From a virus: DNA of 61,640 nt. The DNA lies in the IMG/VR virus record IMGVR_UViG_3300032326_000597, positions 1 to 61,640 of that record, one strand, 5' to 3'. A program made the position numbers and the translations under genes. The first letter of the stretch is position 1. Each line of letters begins with the position of its first letter. Positions 7,455-58,467 of the stretch are shown piece by piece. The notes beneath the pieces are model-generated. The model was given only the letters and a program-made list of their open reading frames with translations. It made no database searches and had not been told where the DNA came from.

Positions 7455-7652
7455 TTAATTTGCCCATCCGCACCCGCCGTTGTCGCGGTTCACCCAATTA
7501 TTGGTGTGTGTTGTTCTGAGGTGGTCTTGATATCCAGCCCCCCTGTGAGTTGTGCATGACGAGAGCAGAGCTGCGATTATTGCAATGATTCCGATTGTTG
7601 CTACGATGCTGTCGTAGATTTTGAGTTTCTTTTGTTTGTCCATGATGTTCAT
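7455..7652 (-). CDS. Small putative lipoprotein (65 aa)
   Basis: A Lys-rich start (MDKQKKLKIYDS) is followed by a hydrophobic segment (IVATIGIIAIIAALL) and the lipobox-like LSSC, then a short Asn/Gly-rich tail. This is the layout of a bacterial lipoprotein signal peptide cleaved before Cys, leaving a mature part of about 33 residues. Phage lipoproteins of this size often act in superinfection exclusion, an inference only. A start at 7643 is an alternative. Confidence 0.65.
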   Translation of the reverse strand: MNIMDKQKKLKIYDSIVATIGIIAIIAALLSSCTTHRGAGYQDHLRTTHTNNWVNRDNGGCGWAN

Positions 7653-12557: not shown

Positions 12558-12977
12558 ATGGTTAAGGCATATACACTGCAAGACAAGATTGTACAACAGG
12601 GGTTCAACGACTTCGAGTCGTTTGTTGGCCTGGTGTTTAAAAAAGATGACGGAGACTCGACTAAGCGGTCGTCTCTTAACGAGCTACAGGCGTCCGGTGC
12701 CACACAGATAAATGTCGGACAGGTTGCTGCCGCTATATGTGACGACAACAGTCTCTATGACACGTATGGGGTCACGGAGTTGATGTTGTCTGACCCAGAC
12801 GTTTCACCCGTCTTAAGCAGGGTGATGAACGCATGGGCTGCTGTTGGTAAGACGCAGTACGTTGTTATCAGGAGGCTTGACTCCTTCCCTGTAATCGACC
12901 CTTCGAGCCCGTTGGTTCCGGTGGCTGTCTGTTACAAGGTAGTTGTTGACGCGTACCTGGCACCTGTTGCACCATAA
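12558..12977 (+). CDS. Hypothetical protein (139 aa)
   Basis: A 139-residue soluble protein with a helical N-terminus (LQDKIVQQGFNDFESFVGLV), an Ala-rich centre (INVGQVAAAICDDN) and a hydrophobic beta-like C-terminus rich in Val and Pro. It is the only acidic/neutral member of this small operon and sits behind an A-run leader. A minor structural protein is possible. No family is recognised. Confidence 0.75.
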   Translation: MVKAYTLQDKIVQQGFNDFESFVGLVFKKDDGDSTKRSSLNELQASGATQINVGQVAAAICDDNSLYDTYGVTELMLSDPDVSPVLSRVMNAWAAVGKTQYVVIRRLDSFPVIDPSSPLVPVAVCYKVVVDAYLAPVAP

Positions 12978-13003
12978 AAAAGTAAAATCTTAATTCAATC
13001 AAT

Positions 13004-13111
13004 ATGAAAAAGACTCAAAACATGCCAGGTAAGCCAATGACGCCAAATCAAAAAAAGGCGTTGGCACTTAAAGAAAAGTCAAAGACTCCAATGCCAAAAT
13101 TTAAGAAGTAA
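13004..13111 (+). CDS. Small basic protein (35 aa)
   Basis: A 35-codon frame (MKKTQNMPGKPMTPNQKKAL at the start) ending in KFKK and a stop that overlaps the next ATG (TAATG). Lys/Pro/Met-rich, like its neighbours. Support comes from position, A-rich start context and shared composition. Confidence 0.6.
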   Translation: MKKTQNMPGKPMTPNQKKALALKEKSKTPMPKFKK

Positions 13112-13374
13112 TGGCAAAGACAGCGGCATGGCAACGTAAGGAGGGCAAGAACCCGGAAGGCGGACTAAACGCCAAGGGCCGTGCCTCGTATAAGCGTGAA
13201 ACCGGAGGCACACTGAAGCCCCCAGTGTCGGCCAAGCAGGCAAAGAAGTCTCCCAAGGCCGCTGCCCGAAGAAAGTCGTTCTGTGCAAGAATGAGCGGAA
13301 TGCCAGGCCCGATGAAGAAGCCTAATGGCAAGCCAACTCGGAAGGCGTTAGCCCTCCGCAAGTGGGACTGCTAG
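13111..13374 (+). CDS. DUF6321-like basic phage protein (87 aa)
   Basis: The sequence AWQRKEGKNPEGGLNAKGRA, then KRETGGTLKPPV, then RRKSFCARMSGMPGPMKKPN, then KPTRKALALRKW matches a conserved phage family (DUF6321) common in marine and freshwater phages: W-Q-R-K-E-G-K-N-P-x-G-G-L-N-x-K-G-R followed by S-F-x-A-R-x-x-G-M-x-G-P. The role is unknown; the strong basic charge and late-gene neighbours suggest nucleic-acid or virion association. It is the last gene before the bidirectional terminator. Confidence 0.85.
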   Translation: MAKTAAWQRKEGKNPEGGLNAKGRASYKRETGGTLKPPVSAKQAKKSPKAAARRKSFCARMSGMPGPMKKPNGKPTRKALALRKWDC

Positions 13375-13412
13375 AAAAAACACGGTCTCGTGTGGGGGAC
13401 CGTTGTAGTTAC

Positions 13413-13447
13413 GAATAAAGCCGGGGTAATACCCGGTTTTTTTATTC
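13413..13447. terminator. Bidirectional terminator between convergent operons
   Basis: CCGGG (13421-13425) pairs with CCCGG (13432-13436), extended by AATAAA pairing with TTTATT, with a T-run on the plus strand and A-run to match on the minus. It stands exactly between plus-strand genes ending at 13374 and minus-strand genes ending at 13442. Confidence 0.8.
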
Positions 13448-13534
13448 GTCAGACTTTTCAACGATCCTAACGACGGCATACACCCCAAGATATAGGGCCA
13501 CCATGGCGATTGTTCCTTGGATAAAGGGATCCAT
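13442..13534 (-). CDS. Tiny single-helix membrane protein, fourth of four (30 aa)
   Basis: A 31-codon frame starting on the stop of the previous tiny gene (TAATG). It reads MDPFIQGTIA, a hydrophobic span (~7-25) and a charged C-terminus (RIVEKSDE). This is the layout of a one-helix membrane peptide. It ends in the terminator at 13413-13447. Evidence is positional plus hydropathy. Confidence 0.55.
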   Translation of the reverse strand: MDPFIQGTIAMVALYLGVYAVVRIVEKSDE

Positions 13535-13629
13535 TACTTTCTGTCTGTTTTTCTAATCATTCGTACCCCTAGCCAGATCAGGGCGACATACATCGCAAGG
13601 GCTATTATACCGTATACAGAATTGTCCAT
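13534..13629 (-). CDS. Tiny single-helix membrane protein, third of four (31 aa)
   Basis: MDNSVYGIIALAMYVALIWL is followed by a short basic tail (RKTDRK), giving an N-out/C-in single helix by the positive-inside rule. It overlaps the upstream tiny gene by 25 bases in another frame and its stop shares bases with the next start. Confidence 0.55.
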   Translation of the reverse strand: MDNSVYGIIALAMYVALIWLGVRMIRKTDRK

Positions 13630-13745
13630 ATTAAAAGGATTATTGAGGTTGTCATGAAAATGTAATAACCAAGGATAAAGTAGTCTGGCTTTCGAAGCTC
13701 CCGATCGACCATTCGGAGCATTTTTCTTACATTAGACTTACACAT
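13605..13745 (-). CDS. Tiny single-helix membrane protein, second of four (46 aa)
   Basis: A basic N-terminus (MCKSNVRKMLRMVDRELRKP) is followed by a C-terminal hydrophobic helix (YFILGYYIFMTTSIILLIWT). This is a tail-anchored layout with the charged part in the cytoplasm. It overlaps both neighbours, by 19 and 25 bases, in different frames. Confidence 0.55.
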   Translation of the reverse strand: MCKSNVRKMLRMVDRELRKPDYFILGYYIFMTTSIILLIWTILYTV

Positions 13746-13858
13746 AGGATGAGGAGGTAATAAAATCCGACGCCGACGGCGATCATGATTAGGTAAGGTA
13801 AAAGGGTTTCAATTTCTTTGTTAGAAAGGATACCCAACAATTTGTTTTTTAGCTTCAT
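13727..13858 (-). CDS. Tiny single-helix membrane protein, first of four (43 aa)
   Basis: A 44-codon frame starting 38 bases inside the preceding gene. The N-terminal 20 residues are charged (MKLKNKLLGILSNKEIETLL) and the rest is a hydrophobic helix (IMIAVGVGFYYLLILCVSLM). It opens a run of four overlapping one-helix membrane proteins. Size and topology would suit small holins, antiholins or membrane-active inhibitors. Confidence 0.55.
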   Translation of the reverse strand: MKLKNKLLGILSNKEIETLLPYLIMIAVGVGFYYLLILCVSLM

Positions 13859-14156
13859 CTTCGTTATTGTTTGACCATAAATCTTTGGCTACATCAAGTA
13901 GCGAATTGAAGTTGTTTGACACGTATTGTGCCTCCACCTCGCAGCCCCATGGTGTTCCACTTGGACTAAGTAGCTCGTAGCTTACACCGGTTTCGGTGCT
14001 GTAGGTGTAGTAATCAACTTGTGCTTGGTAAATTGCAATGTGATCGGTTGGACCATTGTCGTGCCACCTTGAGATTGCATATACCTTCGACCCAATTGGG
14101 TAGGCTTGGAACGTCACTTGAGTTTGTGCGCCCTCTTGTGTTTTTGCTTTTTTCAT
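13821..14156 (-). CDS. Hypothetical protein (111 aa)
   Basis: A 111-residue soluble, beta-rich protein (QVTFQAYPIGSKVYAISRWH, then a Tyr/Thr-rich middle) with an acidic Asn-rich C-terminal helix. It lies just downstream of the tRNA region, behind two TTTCGTTTAT-type repeats, and its end overlaps the first tiny membrane-protein gene by 38 bases. The function is unknown. Confidence 0.75.
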   Translation of the reverse strand: MKKAKTQEGAQTQVTFQAYPIGSKVYAISRWHDNGPTDHIAIYQAQVDYYTYSTETGVSYELLSPSGTPWGCEVEAQYVSNNFNSLLDVAKDLWSNNNEDEAKKQIVGYPF

Positions 14157-14174
14157 TTCGTTTATTTCGTTTAT

Positions 14175-14206
14175 TCTTGTAACAAAAAAGGTAAAAATTT
14201 GTTACA
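14175..14206 (-). other. Inverted repeat between tRNA and CDS
   Basis: TGTAACAAA and TTTGTTACA form a 9-bp stem around a T-rich loop just downstream of the tRNA at 14212. It could be a tRNA-processing or termination structure. Confidence 0.45.
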
Positions 14207-14211
14207 GTTAG

Positions 14212-14310
14212 TAGCCAGGGCAGGACTCGAACCTGTAAGTTTTTAGTTTAACGTCTAAAACACCTCGTAAGGCAAAAATTCCATTGCGTCTACCATTCCG
14301 CCACCTGACT
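14212..14310 (-). tRNA. tRNA with Leu-like body but non-canonical anticodon region
   Basis: On the minus strand the 7-bp acceptor stem (AGTCAGG/CCTGGCT, one G-T pair), a D arm of tRNA-Leu type (GGCGGAATGGTAGACGC) and a T arm with loop TTCGAGT are clear, with A as discriminator and no encoded CCA. The 48 bases between D and T arms do not give a normal 5-bp stem with a 7-base loop. They contain two hairpins instead (CCT-TACG-AGG and TTTTAG-N8-CTAAAA). The gene is 99 bases long, longer than a standard type II tRNA. The anticodon cannot be assigned; it may be degenerate or hold an insertion. Confidence 0.6.
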
Positions 14311-14317
14311 ATGTTGA

Positions 14318-14420
14318 GGGTGAGAAGTCCTCTGTGTTGTGTCATAACTGGATGACCTACCAACTAATTCCTTTCTCAAGGGAACAACACTTTGTAGCTC
14401 GTCTTTCCGAGCTGTCACCC
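14318..14420 (-). ncRNA. Candidate multi-branched structured RNA between two tRNAs
   Basis: GGGTGA/TCACCC (14318-14323 with 14415-14420) closes a 103-base unit. Inside are a hairpin AGCTCG-GAAAGA-CGAGCT and a 7-bp stem GTGTTGT/ACAACAC (14334-14340 with 14384-14390), which itself holds two hairpins, TTCC-N9-GGAA and GTCAT-CCAGTT-ATGAC. It has no T-loop and does not fit a tRNA. No protein frame on the minus strand explains it. The stretch 14421-14481 has further pairing (GCCTC/GAGGC, CCACAATGTGG). Confidence 0.45.
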
Positions 14421-14481
14421 ACTTTGAAGCCTCTAGGTTTTCGTTCCTGTCAGGGTGAGGCAATTAACCACATTGTGGCTG

Positions 14482-14554
14482 TAGTCAGGACAGGATTCGA
14501 ACCTGTATCAATGCAGAGAGCGACTCCACAGCGTCACCGTTGCGCCACCTGACT
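14482..14554 (-). tRNA. tRNA, tentative anticodon CGC
   Basis: A 73-base cloverleaf on the minus strand: acceptor AGTCAGG/CCTGACT (7 bp), D arm GCG...CGC with GGT in the loop, anticodon stem GTGGA/TCTGC (two G-T pairs) with loop GTCGCTC, variable region of 6, T arm ACAGG-TTCGAAT-CCTGT, discriminator A, no CCA. By position the anticodon is CGC, which would read GCG (Ala), but there is no G3-T70 pair, so charging identity is doubtful. Acceptor and D-arm bases are close to the tRNA at 14212, which suggests duplication. Confidence 0.75.
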
Positions 14555-14633
14555 AATCAAAACTACCACGTAAGTGTGCTGTTCTAATGGGAAGCATCGT
14601 GGTATTTAGTCACAATTCTTCAAATTTATGAGA

Positions 14634-14960
14634 CTAAGCTTCATTCTTCCCCTCAACGCCACGCTTGATTCTGTTGGCGGTACGAGCGGTTTGCCAGTGA
14701 ATTGCTTCTTCGATCTTTGTAATCGTGAGCGCATTTTCACGGCATGGAAACGCTTCGTTCAAGCTTTCGAAAAGACACTTCACATACTCCAGCATATCAA
14801 CTACTTGTACGCCGTTCACACCAACCTCACCGATTGGATCCGACTGAATAGTAAAAGATACTACAGGAGCGATACCCTTTATATCTTCTTCGTTTTCAAT
14901 AAAAATAAAATCTTTTGCTTTTTCTGGCATCTTGTTCAATGCCTTGGTTACATGTCTCAT
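14634..14960 (-). CDS. Acb2/Tad1-like anti-defence protein (108 aa)
   Basis: The C-terminal two thirds reads GEVGVNGVQVVDMLEYVKCL (44-63), then CRENALTITKIEEAIHWQTART (~73-94), then GVEGKNEA. The pattern G-V-N-G ... P-C/S-R-E-N-A-L-A-x-T-K-x-E-E-A-x-x-W ... R-T ... R-G-V-E-G is the helical-hairpin motif of a large phage family which I associate with Acb2/Tad1-type proteins. Acb2 is a cyclic-nucleotide sponge that blocks CBASS immunity, and Tad1 sequesters Thoeris signals. The binding residues are not verified here. It lies with a MazG-like protein and tRNAs in an accessory operon driven from 16025-16054. If the assignment is right, it protects the phage against signal-based immunity. Confidence 0.55.
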   Translation of the reverse strand: MRHVTKALNKMPEKAKDFIFIENEEDIKGIAPVVSFTIQSDPIGEVGVNGVQVVDMLEYVKCLFESLNEAFPCRENALTITKIEEAIHWQTARTANRIKRGVEGKNEA

Positions 14961-14976
14961 ATTGGTTTGTTTTAAA

Positions 14977-15189
14977 TTACATTTTCATAATCTTTTTTAG
15001 ATAAAGCGCCAGATCAAGCGCCTCCTCGTATGCGTGTTGGATCCACTCCTTGTGACTTAGGTCATTTCTGTCCATTGTCTGCTTGTATTCCGAGTATCCC
15101 TTCTTCTCACGCATGATCATGTCTACAATCACCTCGTTGAGTAGTTCTGAGGCGTATTTTATCGGCTTATCGTCGCTTGTATGTCCCAT
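14977..15189 (-). CDS. MazG-like NTP pyrophosphatase-type helical protein (70 aa)
   Basis: The segment REKKGYSEYKQTMDRNDLSH then WIQHAYEEALDLALYLKKIM is the helix pair H-A-x-E-E-x-x-D/N-x-x-x-Y of small phage proteins related to all-alpha MazG/dUTPase-type NTP pyrophosphatases. Only one E-E-x-x-D-type metal-binding helix is visible, so a dimer would be needed for catalysis. At 70 residues it is a minimal version. Alternatives are a non-catalytic structural homologue. Confidence 0.55.
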   Translation of the reverse strand: MGHTSDDKPIKYASELLNEVIVDMIMREKKGYSEYKQTMDRNDLSHKEWIQHAYEEALDLALYLKKIMKM

Positions 15190-18513: not shown

Positions 18514-18766
18514 CTTCTATTTTTTTAAGTTCGTTAAAGTGTCCGCTGATCCAAAGGTACATATCTTTCCCCGTAAGCTCGTACAATCTTATGTTGATTA
18601 GCTTCATTAGGGACTTGTCACGGTCATATTTTTTCTTCGGCTTATGAACACCCGCCTTGGGGTATTCCATGTCGTCAGTGAGGAGCTTATGCCTCAGATT
18701 CCGAAGGTGCTGCAACTCGCTCTGGTCTGACGGTGTAGGCGGTAAGTATATCGGGATTCCGTTCAT
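18500..18766 (-). CDS. Hypothetical basic helical protein (88 aa)
   Basis: An 88-residue protein starting MNGIPIYLPPTPSDQSELQH with a Lys-rich helical centre (KPKKKYDRDKSLMKLINIRL). Its first 80 bases overlap the end of the DnaA-like gene in another frame, an unusually long overlap for this window. Both frames look genuine: this one has Pro-rich then helical structure and a clear ATG. The function is unknown. Confidence 0.65.
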   Translation of the reverse strand: MNGIPIYLPPTPSDQSELQHLRNLRHKLLTDDMEYPKAGVHKPKKKYDRDKSLMKLINIRLYELTGKDMYLWISGHFNELKKIEDGQN

Positions 18767-19172
18767 TGAAAAAGTCTAATAAAAGTTCTTGTCTTGTTTG
18801 GTCTAGGTCGGCAATGAAGTGACGTATCTTTTTTCTTCTTGCCGCGTTGTAGTCGTAGTCAACCTTTAGTGTTTTCAAGGCGTGAGAAACCGTTGCATGG
18901 TCCCTTTCAACAAGCCTGGCGACGTCCATAAGGCTTTTTGTAGTACACACCCTTACGGTTGTCATGAACATCTGCCGGGCAAATACTACGTCTCTAAACT
19001 TTCTCTTGCCCTTGATGTCTGCCACGGGTACATGGAAGTGTCTTCCAACCTTCTCTAACAACTCGTTTTCTTGTGCGTCTTCTACCTTGTGTAGGTACTC
19101 GTAAATCTTTGTGAACTCGGCCCGGTTTTGACTTGGGACCACGTTTATTAAGTCTTTGAATGTATATCTCAT
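18687..19172 (-). CDS. DnaA domain-IV-like DNA-binding protein (161 aa)
   Basis: The middle of the protein (about 37-110) matches the C-terminal DNA-binding domain of DnaA: VGRHFHVPVADIKGKRKFRD, then an Ala-Arg-x-Met helix (FARQMFMTTVRV), then SLMDVARLVERDHATVSHAL, with the D-H-A-T-V-x-H-A signature that reads DnaA boxes. The AAA+ ATPase of DnaA is absent, so it cannot melt DNA by itself. It could bind phage or host DnaA boxes as a replication regulator, competitor of host DnaA, or transcription factor. It follows SSB in a replication operon with a 9-bp hairpin between the two. Confidence 0.8.
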   Translation of the reverse strand: MRYTFKDLINVVPSQNRAEFTKIYEYLHKVEDAQENELLEKVGRHFHVPVADIKGKRKFRDVVFARQMFMTTVRVCTTKSLMDVARLVERDHATVSHALKTLKVDYDYNAARRKKIRHFIADLDQTRQELLLDFFNERNPDILTAYTVRPERVAAPSESEA

Positions 19173-19975: not shown

Positions 19976-21928
19976 TCATTCCCAATCCTCCCTATACCCG
20001 TTCGGGTGTCCTGGCTCCTCATTCCATTCCTTTGCGTCTTTAGAGTCTGTCCAGTTTCTGTTTGGTCTTATCACGGAAGGCTTCGGCTCTTCGATGTTAG
20101 ACTGAACGAATTTACCCTCGATCGCCCGTTGAAGGTAATCGACGCCCTCGAACGTAAACCTGCGGGTAGACCTTACAAGCTCAAAGTCAAAGAATCCCTT
20201 TATCCCAACGATCTTTTGTCTGCGGATCTTCTTGGAGTGAAACTCACACAGCGGACTTTCGGGAGCCGTCTGAGCAACAGGTCTGTGGTAGATAATAATA
20301 TTATCAGCCTTATTGTTCCACATAGCGCCATCAGCAAGGTCAAACACCTCCGGGCATGGGTAGTTTCCGTCGTCTCCCTTCCTCATCTTGTGCGGATGGA
20401 CCACGATGTCGAAGTACACGTTGTTCTTCCTTGCAAACCTTGTGCAGTCAGATAGAAATGTCTCAAGGTACTTGTCGCTACGCCCACCGCCCTTGCTATA
20501 GTCGTTTGCCATTTGGTTGAATGGGTCGATTACCACGCGGTCGATTCCATGTTTAATAATCATGCTTAGGAAAACTTCTTTCACGTAGTCAGGAGTCGGG
20601 CTTACGTTCTTTGGATACACCATGAAGATGTGTTTGCCAATCATATCATACACCTTCTTGTACGCATCGTAACTTGGTCTGTGGTAGTTGTTGGGTGTGC
20701 AATCCTTCCCGAAGTAAATTTCGACCAGATCATGATAGAACTGTTCAGCAGGCAACTCCTCAGGGGTGAAGATGGCAACCTTCTCTCCAAACTTTACCAT
20801 GCGGAATATCATCTCCCATTTCATGAACGATGACTTACCATAGTTTCCAATTCCGGAAACAATTGTTAATTCTCCCTTGACTCTTTTGAAGTGTTTGTCT
20901 AGAAGCGGAACGCCAAGCGGCATGGCTGCCTGATAGCCCTTGTGGTAAATCTCAGACGCCTGTTCGAATACCTCTTCAGCGTAAATGACATCTTCTGCGG
21001 CGATATTCTCCGCATCTTCTGCGGTGATTACGATATTAATCTCCGCATTTGTAGACTTGGATACAAGCTGATCCTTAGTAAACTCGGCGGTATTCCACTG
21101 ATTCATGTTGGCCCGGTACGCGCTGCGGATGGCTTGCCTGCATTCCTTTTGGCTAAAGCTAGAGTTTGGAGTAACGTAGGTCATTATTAGGTTGTAGCAG
21201 GTCTCCTCAATCATCCCAAACCGGCAACAACTAGCAGCCAACTTGAACACGAAGTGATTCCTCTCCCCTTCACGGAACGCATCACCCTTGGATGTCATCC
21301 ACGTCAGAAGGTTTTGGAATATCTTGTCGTCGTCGTTTATGGTTTCAGTAGTTGTCTGTTGTGGCAACCTTCTGTCTTCCTTTTTTACAGGCAGCTTTGT
21401 GTATGTTTCGGCGTTTTCGTTATACCAAAGATTGGTATCATACGACTCAAAGCATAGGCGGGAAACATTTCTACCAGTCTTGTCAATGTCGGGCATCTCT
21501 TCCATTAGTGCATCAAAGTGTTCCTTGTGCTTGGTTTTCCACTCAATTTGGACGAGCGCTTTTAAGCCCTTTCCTGAGGGTGATTCCCAGACAGCGGTAA
21601 TATACCTCACCGAACACAATTCGCTTCGTTTTTGGGCCATATCCGCAACGTTATCGAAGTCCAACACGATGTATCCGGAGTGTTCGAGCAGCTCAGAGTC
21701 TTTTCTTTTGGAAAAGGTGCCACTGAAACAAACTGCTGGAAGTTTCTTTTTTAACTCGTCCGCCTCTTTCTTGGTCTTGGCTTCCCTCGCCTTCTCAACA
21801 AGTGCCTTTGACTTTCCAGTCCTAATTCGTTCAAGTGCGCCCAGTACACTAATTGTGTGTCCTTGCAGGTCATTGAAGTCTTTGTAGATGGATACCTTAC
21901 CATTTATTCCTTGGGTCATTTGGGTCAT
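19976..21928 (-). CDS. VirE_N/BT4734-type primase fused to RecA-fold helicase (650 aa)
   Basis: Numbered from the ATG at 21928. Residues ~65-170 match the VirE N-terminal/BT4734-like domain (VCFSGTFSKRKD, GYIVLDFDN with Asp90/Asp92, then ESPSGKGLKALVQI), a primase-polymerase-like module common in Bacteroidetes mobile elements. Residues ~200-290 resemble a PriCT-type helical linker. The C-terminal half is a DnaB/RecA-type ATPase: Walker A GIGNYGKSS (359-367), TPEE (388-391), Walker B RVVIDPF (~464-470) and VVHPHK. Together this is a primase-helicase that primes and unwinds at the phage fork. The start (21928 or 21919) overlaps the initiator gene by about 30 bases. The longer frame to 22039 is rejected because it runs far into that gene. 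Confidence 0.8.
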   Translation of the reverse strand: MTQMTQGINGKVSIYKDFNDLQGHTISVLGALERIRTGKSKALVEKAREAKTKKEADELKKKLPAVCFSGTFSKRKDSELLEHSGYIVLDFDNVADMAQKRSELCSVRYITAVWESPSGKGLKALVQIEWKTKHKEHFDALMEEMPDIDKTGRNVSRLCFESYDTNLWYNENAETYTKLPVKKEDRRLPQQTTTETINDDDKIFQNLLTWMTSKGDAFREGERNHFVFKLAASCCRFGMIEETCYNLIMTYVTPNSSFSQKECRQAIRSAYRANMNQWNTAEFTKDQLVSKSTNAEINIVITAEDAENIAAEDVIYAEEVFEQASEIYHKGYQAAMPLGVPLLDKHFKRVKGELTIVSGIGNYGKSSFMKWEMIFRMVKFGEKVAIFTPEELPAEQFYHDLVEIYFGKDCTPNNYHRPSYDAYKKVYDMIGKHIFMVYPKNVSPTPDYVKEVFLSMIIKHGIDRVVIDPFNQMANDYSKGGGRSDKYLETFLSDCTRFARKNNVYFDIVVHPHKMRKGDDGNYPCPEVFDLADGAMWNNKADNIIIYHRPVAQTAPESPLCEFHSKKIRRQKIVGIKGFFDFELVRSTRRFTFEGVDYLQRAIEGKFVQSNIEEPKPSVIRPNRNWTDSKDAKEWNEEPGHPNGYREDWE

Positions 21929-22619
21929 AATTGTAGTTAGTTTGTTTTGTATTTGTATTCGTATTCGTTGTTTCGTCTTCCCATCTTCTGTCGCGAAGAT
22001 ATCGTATCGGGTCCTTCCAGTATTTGCGCTCGCGACCATTCTTGTGGTTTCCCATGCCTTCTACTGCTAGGGTTCGGTCCTCATCAGATAGTTTATTCCA
22101 AACAGCAAGGGTTTGTTTCTTATCCACCTTCTTGTCATACATCAACCAAAACTGCTCGAAAGAATACTTACTTTCTTCTTTTACTTTATTCTTTTTATTA
22201 TGTGAGCATTCCTGAGCAGGGGTATGCTCATTTTTGAGCAGGGGGTATGCAGGTTTTTGAGCAGGGGTATGATCAAAAAACTCATCTTCTTCATTTTCAG
22301 ACATTGGTATTTCGGGAGTAACCGTTCTGCTCAAAATATCAGCATCTGGATTTATCGTTAAACATCTTACCTCAACCTCATTTCGATTATTGAGTTTAAC
22401 TATTCTCCCCAAAACACCCTTCTGTTCGAGGTCGGCAATTACGCGACGAACACTATGCTTGGATATACCAAGGCACTCACCCAGGTAATGGTTTGAAGCG
22501 AAACAATAACCTTTGATGTTTGATAGATTTGATATGACACCTATGAGTAATTTCTCAGTAGATGACAATTCCTTGCTAAGCAGCACACTTGCAGGGATAA
22601 TTGAATATTGATTGTGCAT
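21897..22619 (-). CDS. Replication initiator / helicase-loader-like protein with winged helix (240 aa)
   Basis: Residues 1-85 form a helix-turn-helix domain of the phage replication-protein type (YSIIPASVLLSKELSSTEKL, NIKGYCFASNHYLGECLGIS, SVRRVIADLEQKGVLGRIVK). After an acidic linker, residues ~150-215 match the C-terminal module of phage replication proteins (FEQFWLMYDKKVDKKQTLAV ... WKDPIRYLRDRRWED), thought to contact the helicase. Starting at the ATG at 22619; the extension to 22646 uses a GTG inside a terminator hairpin. It lies directly upstream of the primase-helicase and behind a leader with hairpin, so it is probably the first regulated replication gene. Confidence 0.8.
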   Translation of the reverse strand: MHNQYSIIPASVLLSKELSSTEKLLIGVISNLSNIKGYCFASNHYLGECLGISKHSVRRVIADLEQKGVLGRIVKLNNRNEVEVRCLTINPDADILSRTVTPEIPMSENEEDEFFDHTPAQKPAYPLLKNEHTPAQECSHNKKNKVKEESKYSFEQFWLMYDKKVDKKQTLAVWNKLSDEDRTLAVEGMGNHKNGRERKYWKDPIRYLRDRRWEDETTNTNTNTKQTNYNYDPNDPRNKW

Positions 22620-33624: not shown

Positions 33625-36558
33625 ATGATTAGCACCGTATCCCTTTCGTTTGATTTAAGCGCATCTCCACCGAGAGCCGTTATTACGGATTCAACCGACT
33701 ATGGAGCATTGTTTTCCGTGTCAACCCAACAAGCTAAGGGATACGGTGTTCTCACTTTTAATGGAGAGATAGTTCAATCGTTTGATTCTCCAAGTAATCC
33801 ACTCATTGACTTGGCTGCTGGAGATACCGTTGGATATATCAACCTTCAGCTTGATAACAACGGCAATGTGGCCAATGGTATTTATGGTTTTGAATATAGT
33901 TTAAGACTTGCAAATCAACCTTCTTCTATACCTGTCAACATCCCAAGTACATCATCTACGTTTTCATTTGTTGGATACGAATGGATGAGTGATTTTTTTG
34001 AAACAGGAAATGATGTCACATTAACCGCTATTACATCGGGAACACCAAATTATAGGACTATTTCTAGCGTAAGCTATGCAGCTGGTAGTACTACTATTGA
34101 CATTAATTCACCAATCACTACGCCTCCATCTCTTTATTATTTTACTTATGATGTAGCAAATGCTCAGTTCAGTCAAACATACACCTATGCAGGTTGTACT
34201 CAAACAACAGCAGATGTAAACTTCATTTACGATTGCGAGTATGGGGATAGCGGAACATGGTCTGTATCAAATGCTACAGTTTTAGGTTCAAACGAAATCG
34301 TATCAAGCCTAAGCTGTACGATAAACTATCCATCTTGGACGAATATCGACTCGCTGTTCAATCCACAGGTAGTTACCACGTCTCTTCCATACCCAACCTT
34401 ACCAACAGAGGACACACCTCTTGCTACGGGTACTTATAGCGTTTTACTGTCACAACAGATTCAGCAAACTCAAACCTCTGGACTTGTTGTTCTTTACAAC
34501 AATTCAATAACAAAAGAATTTACTGTAAGCTGTGCGGGAACCCTTTGTGGACTTGTTCCTTGCATTGAGAACCTTCGTGCAGCTCACGCGGCAGAACTTG
34601 TACGAAACAGAATTTCAAAATACCAAGTTTTTGTAGACAATGTCCTTCTGTATTACACAGAGGCTATGAACTACAGGTCTTGCGGAGAACTTGACAAATA
34701 CAAAGAAACTATCGCCCTTCTTCAGGCTCAATTAGACGCCTCAGGGTGCGACTGTGCTTGCTGTGACAACGAGACCTACTACTGGGTGTCAAATAACTCA
34801 GCTAACTCTATTATCGACGAGTTGCTCGCTAACTTCCAATACCGATTGTTCAATACAGGTAGCGGAGATCCTGGACCCGCCCAAGATGGGGTAGAGTTTG
34901 GGGCTATTTGGCAAAATACTAATACCGGTGTTCTTTACCGTTGCACAGACGCGACACCTACGGCTTTGATTTGGGAGGAGTATTACAACCCTTCCACCTC
35001 ATCTTCTGTTGGAGCCGCAAACGGCTTGTCTGTCACCGCAAGTGATATAGTGCTTGGTGGCACTTTAGATACTGACACCACGATTACTTTAGGTACACGC
35101 GATATTGATTTTTCTGGAACTAGCGGAAATCTAACATTTTCTGGAACTACTGGAAACGTAATAGTTTCGTCCACTACTGGATCGGCTATAGTTGCAACAG
35201 GAACAACCAACGCACTTAGCGTTGAGGGAACTACTAACGCTCTTAGCGCTCAGGCCACTAACGATGTAGCTGCTTTTCTTCGAGTAGATCGCGCTACAAA
35301 TAATACCGTTGCTAAAAATCTTGTCTTATCAACAACCGTAACAGGGTCTGGTGTTGGAGCGAACGGCTTAGGTTCTTCAATAGAATTTTTGGCTGAAGGA
35401 TCGTCTTCGTCTTTCCCCTTTACTACATCTTCTATTGAAAGTGTGGTTACTAACTCTGCGTCACAGAGAGGAGAGTTGAAGTTTAATGTAAAGGCAGGAA
35501 GCCTTGTAAATAGTCTTACTCTTAATCCGGACGCATCTGTAACCCTTCCATTTTATGGTGACGGAAACTACACCGGAACAGCTACTCAATCATTGAGTGT
35601 AGATGTAGATGGAAACGTTATTGAAACAACCCATATTTCAGGCGCGGACAATGGCCTTTCAATTTCATCAGGAAACGTAATCCTTGGGGGTTCCTTGGAC
35701 GCTCCGACTACGATTGATTTAAATTCTCAAGATTTGACTTTTTCTGGTGGAACTGTTACAGCTTCTGCTGTAGACAATGCCTTACAAGTGAATGGAGGTG
35801 TAGGCGCTCTCACCGTAACGGGATCATCAAATGTTGTTGATGTTACAGCAAACAATAGTGTAGCTGGTCGTTTTGAAGTCGAGAGAGCTACAAACAATAC
35901 TGTTGCCACAGTTTTGAGTCTAAGAACATCTGTTGACGGAGGCGATGGAGCAGATGGTATCGGTACAGCTATTCAATTTGCATCAGAATCGAGTACTAAC
36001 ATAGTTTCCACAACAGCTTCTATTGAAAGCGTTTTAGTTAGCGCGTCATCACCTTTGCAAGCGAATTTAAACTTTAAGACAAGATCAAGTTCAGGTTCAG
36101 CGCTTCTTGACAGGTTAACTCTTAATTCAGACGGTTCTGCTACATTGCCTTCCTATGGCAGCGGATCCATTGCGGGAACGCCCACGTATTCATTAAGCGT
36201 TGACTCTTCTGGTAACGTAATTGAAACAGCGCTTTCTGGTGGTCCTTTAGTTTATATAGCTAGACTTTTTCAGTCTGGCACTACTGCTCCAACAGCCGTT
36301 GAGCTTGTAAATACTACAGGCGCTACTTTTACATGGAGTTATGTAATTTCTGGTATTTATCGGGTAACGGCATCATCTGCTGTTTTAACTACAGATAAAA
36401 CAGCCATGTTTGTAACAGCGTCTGGCACTAGTCCATATATACTTATGGGTGCAATAAATACCACAACTCAAGGTACGATAATTTCATCAAATAATTTTGT
36501 TAGTTATGTGGACAACTTAATTAATGGAGCTATTGTTAAAATAGAAATTTATCCATAA
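33625..36558 (+). CDS. Beta-rich fibre/spike-type protein with internal duplication (977 aa)
   Basis: The protein is Ser/Thr/Gly/Asn-rich and beta-structured. Residues ~1-320 are a beta N-terminal domain; 320-400 a helical spacer with a Cys cluster (CDCACCDNETYYW). Residues ~462-671 and ~672-870 are two copies of one module, each opening with A-N/D-G-L-S-V/I-x-x-x-x-I/V-I/V-L-G-G-T/S-L and ending in a G-x-V-I-E-T segment. The last 100 residues are a beta C-terminus. The G-L-S ... L-G-G pattern is typical of phage tail-fibre shafts. Encoded between capsid and neck genes, it may decorate the capsid or serve as a receptor-binding fibre. Confidence 0.75.
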   Translation: MISTVSLSFDLSASPPRAVITDSTDYGALFSVSTQQAKGYGVLTFNGEIVQSFDSPSNPLIDLAAGDTVGYINLQLDNNGNVANGIYGFEYSLRLANQPSSIPVNIPSTSSTFSFVGYEWMSDFFETGNDVTLTAITSGTPNYRTISSVSYAAGSTTIDINSPITTPPSLYYFTYDVANAQFSQTYTYAGCTQTTADVNFIYDCEYGDSGTWSVSNATVLGSNEIVSSLSCTINYPSWTNIDSLFNPQVVTTSLPYPTLPTEDTPLATGTYSVLLSQQIQQTQTSGLVVLYNNSITKEFTVSCAGTLCGLVPCIENLRAAHAAELVRNRISKYQVFVDNVLLYYTEAMNYRSCGELDKYKETIALLQAQLDASGCDCACCDNETYYWVSNNSANSIIDELLANFQYRLFNTGSGDPGPAQDGVEFGAIWQNTNTGVLYRCTDATPTALIWEEYYNPSTSSSVGAANGLSVTASDIVLGGTLDTDTTITLGTRDIDFSGTSGNLTFSGTTGNVIVSSTTGSAIVATGTTNALSVEGTTNALSAQATNDVAAFLRVDRATNNTVAKNLVLSTTVTGSGVGANGLGSSIEFLAEGSSSSFPFTTSSIESVVTNSASQRGELKFNVKAGSLVNSLTLNPDASVTLPFYGDGNYTGTATQSLSVDVDGNVIETTHISGADNGLSISSGNVILGGSLDAPTTIDLNSQDLTFSGGTVTASAVDNALQVNGGVGALTVTGSSNVVDVTANNSVAGRFEVERATNNTVATVLSLRTSVDGGDGADGIGTAIQFASESSTNIVSTTASIESVLVSASSPLQANLNFKTRSSSGSALLDRLTLNSDGSATLPSYGSGSIAGTPTYSLSVDSSGNVIETALSGGPLVYIARLFQSGTTAPTAVELVNTTGATFTWSYVISGIYRVTASSAVLTTDKTAMFVTASGTSPYILMGAINTTTQGTIISSNNFVSYVDNLINGAIVKIEIYP

Positions 36559-53554: not shown

Positions 53555-54046
53555 ATGAAACCTTATAGCTTAGACAAAGGTGTAGTAGACCTACTAGCTC
53601 CACGCCATCTTGACGAGATGGATGCATTTTACTTCTATCGTGCCGCCAGCAACTGGTGTCAGGGTGTTGGATACTTCAAGGCAGCTGCCTTTTTCGCGGC
53701 TGAGTCTCAGGACGAACTCGAACACGCGGCCAAGATTGAAAAGTACTTGGTGGACTGGAACATCACCGTTCCACTTCCCACTGTACCCAAGCCACGTGTA
53801 GACTTCTCCGGGCTTCTTGAGGTGCTAGAGGAGGCGTACAAGATTGAGTACGATTTGTACGAGGCGTATGAAGACACGTCCAAGAAACTTTTCAACATGG
53901 ACCTTTGCACGTTTGACTTCTTGCAGCAGTTCCGTTTGATACAGACCAAGTCTGTGGCGGAATACAGCGACAAGCTTAACCTGCTTGAGGATGTGGATGG
54001 AAAGGATAAATTCAAGTTATTGCTTCTCGAAGAAAAATTGTTCTAA
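53555..54046 (+). CDS. Ferritin-like iron-binding protein (163 aa)
   Basis: The first helix DEMDAFYFYRAASNWCQGVG aligns with ferritin helix A (E-L-x-A-x-x-x-Y-L-x-x-A-x-W-C), and FKAAAFFAAESQDELEHAAK with helix B (A-x-F-F-x-x-x-S-x-E-E-x-x-H-A-x-K). Iron ligands predicted: Glu21, Glu54 and His57, plus acidic residues at 92-98 and Gln130 in helices C and D. After helix B comes L-P-T-V-P-K-P, matching the ferritin loop to helix C. The length (163) is that of bacterial ferritin. It sits 6 bases after the giant ejection gene and shares TAATG with the next structural gene, so it is translated with virion proteins. Iron storage, oxidative protection or a virion role are possible. Confidence 0.85.
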   Translation: MKPYSLDKGVVDLLAPRHLDEMDAFYFYRAASNWCQGVGYFKAAAFFAAESQDELEHAAKIEKYLVDWNITVPLPTVPKPRVDFSGLLEVLEEAYKIEYDLYEAYEDTSKKLFNMDLCTFDFLQQFRLIQTKSVAEYSDKLNLLEDVDGKDKFKLLLLEEKLF

Positions 54047-57000
54047 TGGCGAAACCTTGTAAGGTAACTATAAAGATGCCGGGCGCTACTGTTGCGGAGG
54101 AAAAAACCTTTGAGCAGTACATGGAGATGCTCTATAACGGGGCGTTGCAGGAGCTTATCAACAACGACAAATTGAACGTTAACGCCCTCAAGGGTGATAA
54201 TCCGTTTAACGAGGCTCCTAAGACCACCAAGAAACAACCTAAAGAAAAGAAGAGCACGATGTCTGACTTTATGAAGTCAAGGCTGGGTGAGGCTTACGGC
54301 GACGTAAGGCAGAGGGCTTACGGAGAAAGGCTTGCAGAGCAACGAGGCATAGGTACTGAAGAGTATATTGCCATTGATCAAAGGGCCATGGAGGTTTTAG
54401 CAAACGAAAAGTTCGAGCAACTTAAAGCCCAATATGAAGCTGGAGAAACGGATATATTTAATGACTTATTAAGTGCATACGGAAACACAACCGAGAACGA
54501 ATGGATTGAAAACTCTGGGTTAAAGTATGAGTACTTAGTGGTTATGGCTAAGGCTGCTAACTACTTCTACGTGAAGGGCGACTATAAGATGGCCAAGAAG
54601 ATATATAATACTAAGGGTACATCAGGAACTACGGCGGGTCAAACAGTAGCTGCACTCGCAGCGGCGTCAACTCCAGAGCAGTTAGCAAACAGAATAATGG
54701 ACGAGGATAGTTCAAAGCGAAACTTCCTCAATCAGGTAACGTCAGGCGGAATGACTATTGGAGAGGCTATCACACAACTGCGTGAGATAGCAAAACTCAA
54801 CCAGGCCGAGGCAATCGCTATTGTTGCGGCTGCAATGCCAAAGGTTAAGAAGACGGCCACCGTTGTAACGGTCAAGCCGGAGTTTAAGGCTCAAAGAACC
54901 GCTAGTGTAAACGCAATCAAGGGTATTCTGGCAAAGAAGAGGACCCCAGGCCCACTTGCCTTGTCAAATTCAATTATAGTTGAGATAACTCCACACATCA
55001 GGGACCTTATTAGCTCATACATCGAGGAGGGTGCGTACTCGGCCAAGATGATTAAGAACAAGGTGTGGAGTCAAATCAAGGACGTACTGCCCGGTGAACG
55101 TACATCGATCGACCAAATCGTTGACGACAACATGGCCTCTTTCGATACCGATATTAAGAAGAACAAGGAGGCAAGCGCAACCAATCGTTTGGCCAAGGCG
55201 TTCGAGGGTATTGCTGATACAAGGAACATCAAGGACAAGGCCCTGAAGATGTTGTCCGACACGATTCTACAGAACGACCCTGAGTACGTCATGGCCAAGA
55301 GCCGTGGCGAGAAGGTGAAGGCAAAGGATAGGCTCAAGACAATTTTAAATAACAAGGCCCAGGTTGAGTCGATGGTGACCAAGGCCATGAATATTGCCAA
55401 GGCAAACGTAGACGCTAACGAGAAGTTAGATGCTGCGACCAAGATGGCAATCAAGAACGAGATTGACGCGCTAGTATCTGACCTGCTTGAGATGCCAATT
55501 GGTGGTGTAGAAAAAAGAGCCGCAGCCGCATCGCTTAGTAAGGAGGATATGGACAAGGAGATTGCTCGTATAGCCGCCGAACACATCACAAACCAAAACG
55601 CGGAAATACAAACCCTTGCAGAGGCAATGGTCGACAACCTTGGAATAGACCCGGCATACGCATCACAGCTACAGGCTGAAATCGAACCCTTGATTGCGGA
55701 GAAGGTTGATGAAAAAATCAAGGCCAAAAAGCAGAGCATAGACTCTATCATGCAGGGCATTAAGGACGCCGAGAGTGTGAAGAAGGGAGTTATCAGGGCT
55801 ATTGCTAAGGGGCAGGTTTCTGACTCTCAGTTTGAAACTGAACTTCTGAAGACACTTGGCTATAAGGGGATATCTCAAAGCGACATTGTGAAGTTGCAGG
55901 GATACTTTGATAGGCTGCAAGCACTCCAGCCCGGAGAGGAGTTGTACCAAGAGATTAACAGGTACATCAACGACATCCTTAGTGAGTACGACGAGACCAC
56001 TGCTGCACTTGTTGGCCGCTGGCTTACCGAGCAGTTCTATACGAACGCGCTTTCGGATATATTTAAGACGGCGATCATGGCCTCTGGTGTGGGTGCTGTA
56101 GTATCGAGCATTCAGCACGGTGCGTTCACGGCCCTTTACAACCCCGCTAGAATGGCCAGGGCGATTAAGTTTGCTAAAATGATGAGGGCCGAGGGCGCCA
56201 CAATGGGATGGGAAACCGTTGCCGCGAAGTGGGAAAAGCCACAGTCTAGGTTTGGTGAAACAACCATGCTTGAAAGACCTGAGGAAAAAGCTCACGGTGC
56301 AATATATCGTGTTACAAAGAAGGAGTACGCTCAGATACTAAGCGACTTCATAAACAAGAAGGGAGGCAGGAGAGCGCGTTACGCAACAGAAGCTTTTTTG
56401 AAGTCCTTTAGTCATTTAATGAGTTCAGGTTATAGAAAGCGCAAGTTCTTGCCTGCCATTTCAGAGATAAGTATGGTACTCATGAGCGCCCAGGATATAC
56501 TTATGGGCGGCGCCTTGCAAGACATTTACACCTACATCGAGGCTGAAAATTACCTCGACATGGTGAATAAGAAGTCAGGTGTCAAGATGAAGAAGGGGTC
56601 AGCGGTTTGGAATCAACAACTTAAGGAGCTTATACAGGCAGGTCCTGATCAGATAAACAATTTCAAAAACGAGGTTGCTCAAGAGGCGGCAGAAAGGATT
56701 GCCAACGGAGAGTCGTTACCGAAGGGTTGGTCAAAGAGAAAGCTTCGCGACAAGGTTCATAACGCAATGCCGAAGGAGGTTATCGACGAGATGGCTCACC
56801 AGGCCAGGAAGTCGCTCCTTCTTCAAAAACCGGAAACACTTGCTGGAGCAGCTGCGTTCAACCTCATATCCAAGGCAACTCCATTTCGAGATACGGACAA
56901 CCCGGTTGTTGCATTTGGAAGACTTACCCTGAGTACGGTGCTAGGCTTCATCCGATTAAACACGGTAATGGCGGAGTACTTCTACAAGTCCATACCTGTT

Positions 57001-58251: not shown

Positions 58252-58467
58252 ATGCAGCATGATATCAATCATACAGATATGACAGGAGATGGATACGTAG
58301 ACGGAGCAGCGTCAGTTTTATTAACTACATTTGCTACTGTGCTTTCATGGCAGGAACAGGCCGAATGGGCCTTCCGAATCGCGTCTCTACTACTAGCCTG
58401 CACTGTGTCTATCGTCGTTCTTTATGGACACCACAAGAAGTCCAAGGCGAAGCGTTCTACCAAGTAA
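58252..58467 (+). CDS. Holin-like membrane protein (71 aa)
   Basis: From the ATG at 58252 (a GTG at 58243 is possible but lies in the -7-like box). Hydrophilic N-terminus (MQHDINHTDMTGDGYVDGAA), a moderately hydrophobic helix (SVLLTTFATVLSW), a charged turn (QEQAEW), a strong membrane helix (AFRIASLLLACTVSIVVLYG) and a basic tail (HHKKSKAKRSTK). One or two spans with a charged C-terminus suit a holin. No endolysin is visible nearby. Confidence 0.5.
   Translation: MQHDINHTDMTGDGYVDGAASVLLTTFATVLSWQEQAEWAFRIASLLLACTVSIVVLYGHHKKSKAKRSTK

Follow-up and report, generated by a model that had tools for sequence, protein, structure and literature searches.

A set of three very small membrane-protein genes, tm43, tm46 and tm30, was found to be real, co-conserved and under purifying selection in a group of related phages, and the site between tm43 and the terminator behind the set holds different genes in near-identical phages, as an accessory swap slot does. 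We tentatively favour the view that these genes belong to a translationally coupled micro-operon that would encode an accessory membrane complex, most likely for superinfection exclusion or counter-defence. The whole stretch of DNA analyzed, here called the window, is the 61,640-base virus record IMGVR_UViG_3300032326_000597. Judged by its sequence, the phage is of flavobacterial type; with identities of roughly 24-38%, the GenBank matches of its terminase and primase were mostly phages of Flavobacterium, Cellulophaga, Maribacter and their relatives. The replication-side genes end, at their 3' side, with the micro-gene block, which comes after the tRNAs; the block comprises or adjoins the following features:

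14481..14554, minus strand: tRNA-Ala (CGC), inside the region unshared with the relatives L061 or L034
14212..14310, minus strand: tRNA-like gene bordering the exchanged block; its Rfam RF00005 score of 29.7 bits is marginal, the gathering score being 29
14178..14206: inverted repeat TGTAACAAA...TTTGTTACA preceding the block; several relatives have it at this position too
13821..14156, minus strand: gene for a 111-aa soluble protein, first in the overlapping chain, overlapping tm43 by 38 bases
13727..13858, minus strand: tm43, 43-aa single-helix gene; homologues in 18 of 24 relative records; pN/pS 0.32
13605..13745, minus strand: tm46, 46 aa, with a basic amphipathic N helix and one membrane helix; pN/pS 0.38
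13534..13629, minus strand: tm31, 31-aa single-helix gene, in the window and L002/L034 only
13442..13534, minus strand: tm30, 30-aa single-helix gene, found by tblastn in 20 loci; pN/pS 0.43
13417..13440: terminator-like hairpin, bidirectional, that separates the block from the convergent genes

The preliminary description had reported four nested micro-genes, each encoding one hydrophobic helix with charged ends, in front of a bidirectional terminator. Four minus-strand frames of 43, 46, 31 and 30 codons are indeed present, with overlaps of 19 bases (tm43/tm46), 25 bases (tm46/tm31) and 1 base (tm31/tm30, TAATG), and the hairpin at about 13417-13440 matches the terminator pattern in both directions. 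However, the chain begins earlier than described, with the 111-aa soluble frame, and the charges are confined to one end of the proteins: tm43 and tm46 have a basic N end and an uncharged C end, and tm31 has a basic C end.

A search with the primase (19976-22039) yielded 79 related loci. The genes tm43, tm46 and tm30 recurred in the same order and the same frames, with about a dozen distinct homologues. Their pN/pS values were summed over 12 distinct homologues with pS of 0.59-0.64; some of the tm43 starts in this set were one codon short, which did not affect the conclusion. Compared with the nearest match for the block (L002/L034, which are one contig), third-position changes accounted for 7 of 11 differences in tm43, 6 of 7 in tm46, 4 of 7 in tm31 and 8 of 14 in tm30. 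tm46 was present on 14 contigs in IMG/VR and in 7 of the 24 relative records searched, and homologues of the 111-aa gene at 45-88% identity were detected in 25 further loci. The co-conserved order, the intact frames and the purifying selection bear out the proposal of real single-helix membrane micro-genes for three of the four; tm31 is confined to the window and a single relative.

In the other relatives with the set, tm46 runs directly into tm30. The similarity of tm31 to the tm30 family exceeded that of segment-preserving shuffles (p 0.002-0.03), and a diverged tandem duplicate of the tm30 gene is a moderately supported origin for tm31. The four genes first proposed are reduced to a set of three and one probable recent copy.

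In the relatives, one of three alternatives filled the slot that lies between tm43 and the terminator: tm46 together with tm30, a C5 DNA methyltransferase (NCBIfam TIGR00675) or an acidic gene of 92 aa (phrog_13182). About half of the close relatives lacked tm46 and tm30 and carried either a soluble gene or the methyltransferase instead. On a primase tree, the slot states needed 12 changes, and presence or absence of the membrane cassette needed nine. A second primase tree gave 11 and 8 changes with some distant labels wrong, and the first tree is the cleaner one; its slot-state label for L047 was confirmed by a later check. In the second tree the methyltransferase labels of L066-L068 and L081 were rejected as weak unrelated matches elsewhere in those loci.

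Comparison at the DNA level indicated exchange of the block. L061, the nearest kin by primase (98% identity), has the acidic gene in the slot; its DNA matched the window at 92% over 22100-14984, showed no match over 14984-13443 and matched again at 89% from 13443, at the terminator. L034 was only 80% identical over the replication genes and 88.7% identical over 14207-13111. The window therefore carries a block that otherwise occurs in a different clade, and its edges are the tRNA genes and the terminator. The second half of tm43 differs where the cassette is absent, a difference that its overlap with tm46 partly forces. Since relatives carry other accessory genes in the slot, the micro-genes look like host-interaction accessories and not like the main lysis machinery.

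The C end KTDHF is shared by tm30 and the methyltransferase, and homology of the two was considered on this basis and rejected. The tail is common to unrelated proteins because the terminator stem (AAAACCGACCATTTCTGATCGGTTT-like) is read as codons; tm30 or the methyltransferase ends on the stem in this way in L003 (6555-6600), L007 (18455-18490), L013, L015 and L040.

The first gene of the block displays an A-rich start context, AAACGAAATG, which is located at tm43 itself in four relatives. The later genes of the chain are without this context, and each has its start within the preceding gene or right at that gene's end; ribosomes therefore probably reinitiate, so that the products would be made together. 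The tm43/tm46 overlap was constant at 19 bases in every listed homologue, and the tm46/tm30 overlap varied from 16 to 28 bases. This layout appears to be that of coupled translation. The inverted repeat lies just ahead of the first block gene and is possibly a regulatory site.

Related arrangements were observed elsewhere. The overlapping-pair layout recurs in L041 (9006-9304) and L048 (17909-18192), away from the site of the block: there the partner whose end is overlapped by a tm30-like gene is another gene, of about 70 aa, with an N-terminal helix. Further 31-aa single-helix micro-genes occur in another small-gene array in G010 (56832-56927, minus strand) and G005 (33987-34082, minus strand). 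A run of small genes at 1250-2274 of the window (minus strand) ends in GGDK, a motif whose codons contain GGAGGTGA, which resembles a Shine-Dalgarno site for the overlapping gene that follows; sites of this type precede only nine of the 88 called genes, unlike the rest of the genome.

An AlphaFold2 model of tm46 placed an N-terminal helix at residues 3-17 and a long helix at residues 20-45, with a mean pLDDT of 82. The N helix of the window protein was amphipathic beyond shuffles (p 0.003), and the N helices of two relatives were marginally so. Charge balance suggests that tm43 and tm46 are oriented N-in and that tm31 and most tm30 proteins are oriented N-out; for the window's own tm30 it was ambiguous by simple count.

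From these features we infer the following course. Translation would start at the first block gene, with its A-rich context, and reinitiate at each overlapping downstream gene, giving joint synthesis, presumably together with the replication genes. The products would be single-pass inner-membrane peptides of mixed orientation, with tm43 and tm46 N-in and tm31 and probably tm30 N-out. Their most likely arrangement would be a single small helix bundle in which the basic, amphipathic N-terminal helix of tm46 lies on the cytoplasmic face. The role may be exerted at the membrane and pay off only against certain hosts or rivals, as superinfection exclusion or counter-defence would.

Superinfection exclusion or counter-defence is favoured because it fits the swap slot and the methyltransferase alternative best. 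The conserved order, frames and purifying selection, the constant 19-base overlap and the later genes without AAACGAAATG support it, as do the alternation of unrelated accessory genes in the slot with its 12 changes of state, the difference between the window and L061 at just this place, the occurrence of the block in a distant clade and the location of the lysis candidates elsewhere. Against it, homologues of known function are lacking, and sharing a slot with a methyltransferase does not bear directly on function. A narrower form, in which three or four co-translated peptides make up a heteromeric device for exclusion or counter-defence that is exchanged as a unit with the methyltransferase or the acidic protein, is possible though doubtful.

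DNA methyltransferases are common anti-restriction genes of phages. T4 Imm is a superinfection-exclusion protein, and such phage proteins are small inner-membrane proteins. The micro-proteins, whose role in exclusion is putative, resemble them in this respect but are smaller, are several in number and have no sequence match in the family libraries. The site likewise resembles moron-like swap slots, where unrelated genes, including DNA methyltransferases, alternate at one site between near-identical phages; it differs in that membrane micro-genes, arranged in a chain and below the usual length limits of gene finders, are one of the alternatives. Genes of 30-46 codons are often lost to length cut-offs, and comparison of relatives reveals a conserved, co-swapped set. 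These families, without a match in the libraries searched, provide a small system in which a possible multi-part phage membrane micro-protein complex can be tested, and the slot between tm43 and the terminator is a place to seek host-interaction genes in this phage group.

None of the micro-proteins had a match above the cut-offs in PHROGs, Pfam, NCBIfam or PADLOC, the last of which covers defence and not counter-defence systems. Weak matches to DUF2127, PspB and phrog_37624 were rejected as reflecting membrane-helix shape only. The 111-aa gene had no match in the family libraries. No match to tm46 was found by tblastn among GenBank phages, and bacterial genomes searched with tm46 and with the terminase gave none, so there is no link to a host. 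No description of this gene set was found in the literature.

The end of the window falls inside a late gene, and the lysis genes were traced in longer relatives. G010 carries a CHAP endolysin after the late genes (Pfam E 2.6e-6; PHROG 'endolysin' 2.4e-8), and endolysin-like proteins also accompany the late genes in G006 and G005, while the micro-genes are on the replication-side strand. A 62-aa protein at 58279-58467 on the late strand of the window combines hydrophobic segments with a basic tail. Its conservation in G010, G006 and G005 is 83-90%, and it had no family match. G006 has both an endolysin and this protein without having the cassette. The 62-aa protein is a better candidate holin than the cassette.

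Next after exclusion or counter-defence ranks a role in lysis timing, in which the peptides would be early-made antiholins or lysis-inhibition factors acting on the holin, with superinfection raising their dose. We consider this unlikely. The products are single-helix membrane proteins and optional lysis regulators could be missing from relatives, but the late-strand endolysin and holin candidates lie a long way from the block, and relatives fill the slot with a soluble gene or with a methyltransferase. A precedent is ORF52 of Salmonella phage BSPM4, an early-expressed 64-aa antiholin-like protein with a single helix (PMC11657625). The micro-proteins are likewise predicted small single-helix membrane proteins, presumably expressed with the replication genes as ORF52 is with early genes; ORF52 is the product of one gene with its helix at the N end, in contrast to three or four smaller, presumably co-translated peptides in a swap slot.

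It is also conceivable, but quite unlikely, that tm30 and tm31 are membrane-depolarising host inhibitors like type I toxin peptides, stopping host growth or respiration. Membrane-associated type I toxins (Fst/Ldr, TisB and kin) are about 30 aa long with one helix and a charged tail that is often cytoplasmic (PMC8309996), and tm30 and tm31, with 30-31 aa, one helix and a charged C end, are comparable. They fall within the type I toxin size range (20-60 aa, one membrane helix), which many other proteins share. The likeness is one of shape only. Several distinct co-conserved helices are encoded here in a chain in a phage accessory slot. An Rfam search of 12900-15000 recovered tRNAs only and no antisense or antitoxin RNA of a described family, although an undescribed RNA may be present. 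Moreover, tm30 is conserved alongside tm43 and tm46, pointing to a function in common.

The preliminary description had also considered a holin/antiholin set. That the cassette is the primary holin set of the phage appears very improbable, despite the small membrane proteins, the overlapping genes and the lack of a proven holin in the window. Its genes are grouped with those for replication and are not part of a late lysis cassette with an endolysin; its proteins match no holin or antiholin family in PHROGs, Pfam or NCBIfam; and tm46 and tm30 are not kept throughout the relatives sharing the lysis genes, as the example of G006 and the absence of the pair from about half of the close relatives indicate. 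Better lysis candidates, the CHAP endolysin and the conserved 62-aa membrane protein, are on the late strand.

That the frames are untranslated and open by chance can hardly be credited: they are very short and without family matches, but their order, frames and hydrophobicity are conserved under purifying selection, a case that is weaker for tm31 alone. Among 5000 dinucleotide-preserving shuffles of the 500-base region, 73 contained one membrane frame of at least 28 codons and none contained two, and the rest of the window held no second chain of membrane frames. Since no shuffle gave a chain longer than one membrane frame, a chance origin of the chain is excluded, as had been supposed at the outset.

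Some other genes were observed in the course of the analysis. A small hydrophobic gene of 78-79 aa with a holin-like shape follows a conserved 87-aa basic gene in L107 (8939-9175, plus strand) and L027 (17564-17803, minus strand); it is on the opposite strand and faces the micro-gene block in some relatives. A 681-aa subtilase (L099 12649-14694, plus strand; Pfam PF00082, E 1.8e-36) lies directly after the CHAP endolysin of the relative G010. In the window, a 161-aa protein with a DnaA C-terminal DNA-binding domain (18687-19172, minus strand; Pfam PF08299, E 6.5e-17) adjoins the replication genes, and a 65-aa protein (7455-7652, minus strand) with an N-terminal helix and a lipobox-like LLSSC is possibly a small lipoprotein. 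Between structural genes, the window encodes a ferritin-like domain protein (53555-54046, plus strand; Pfam PF00210, E 7.7e-19) that relatives have conserved.
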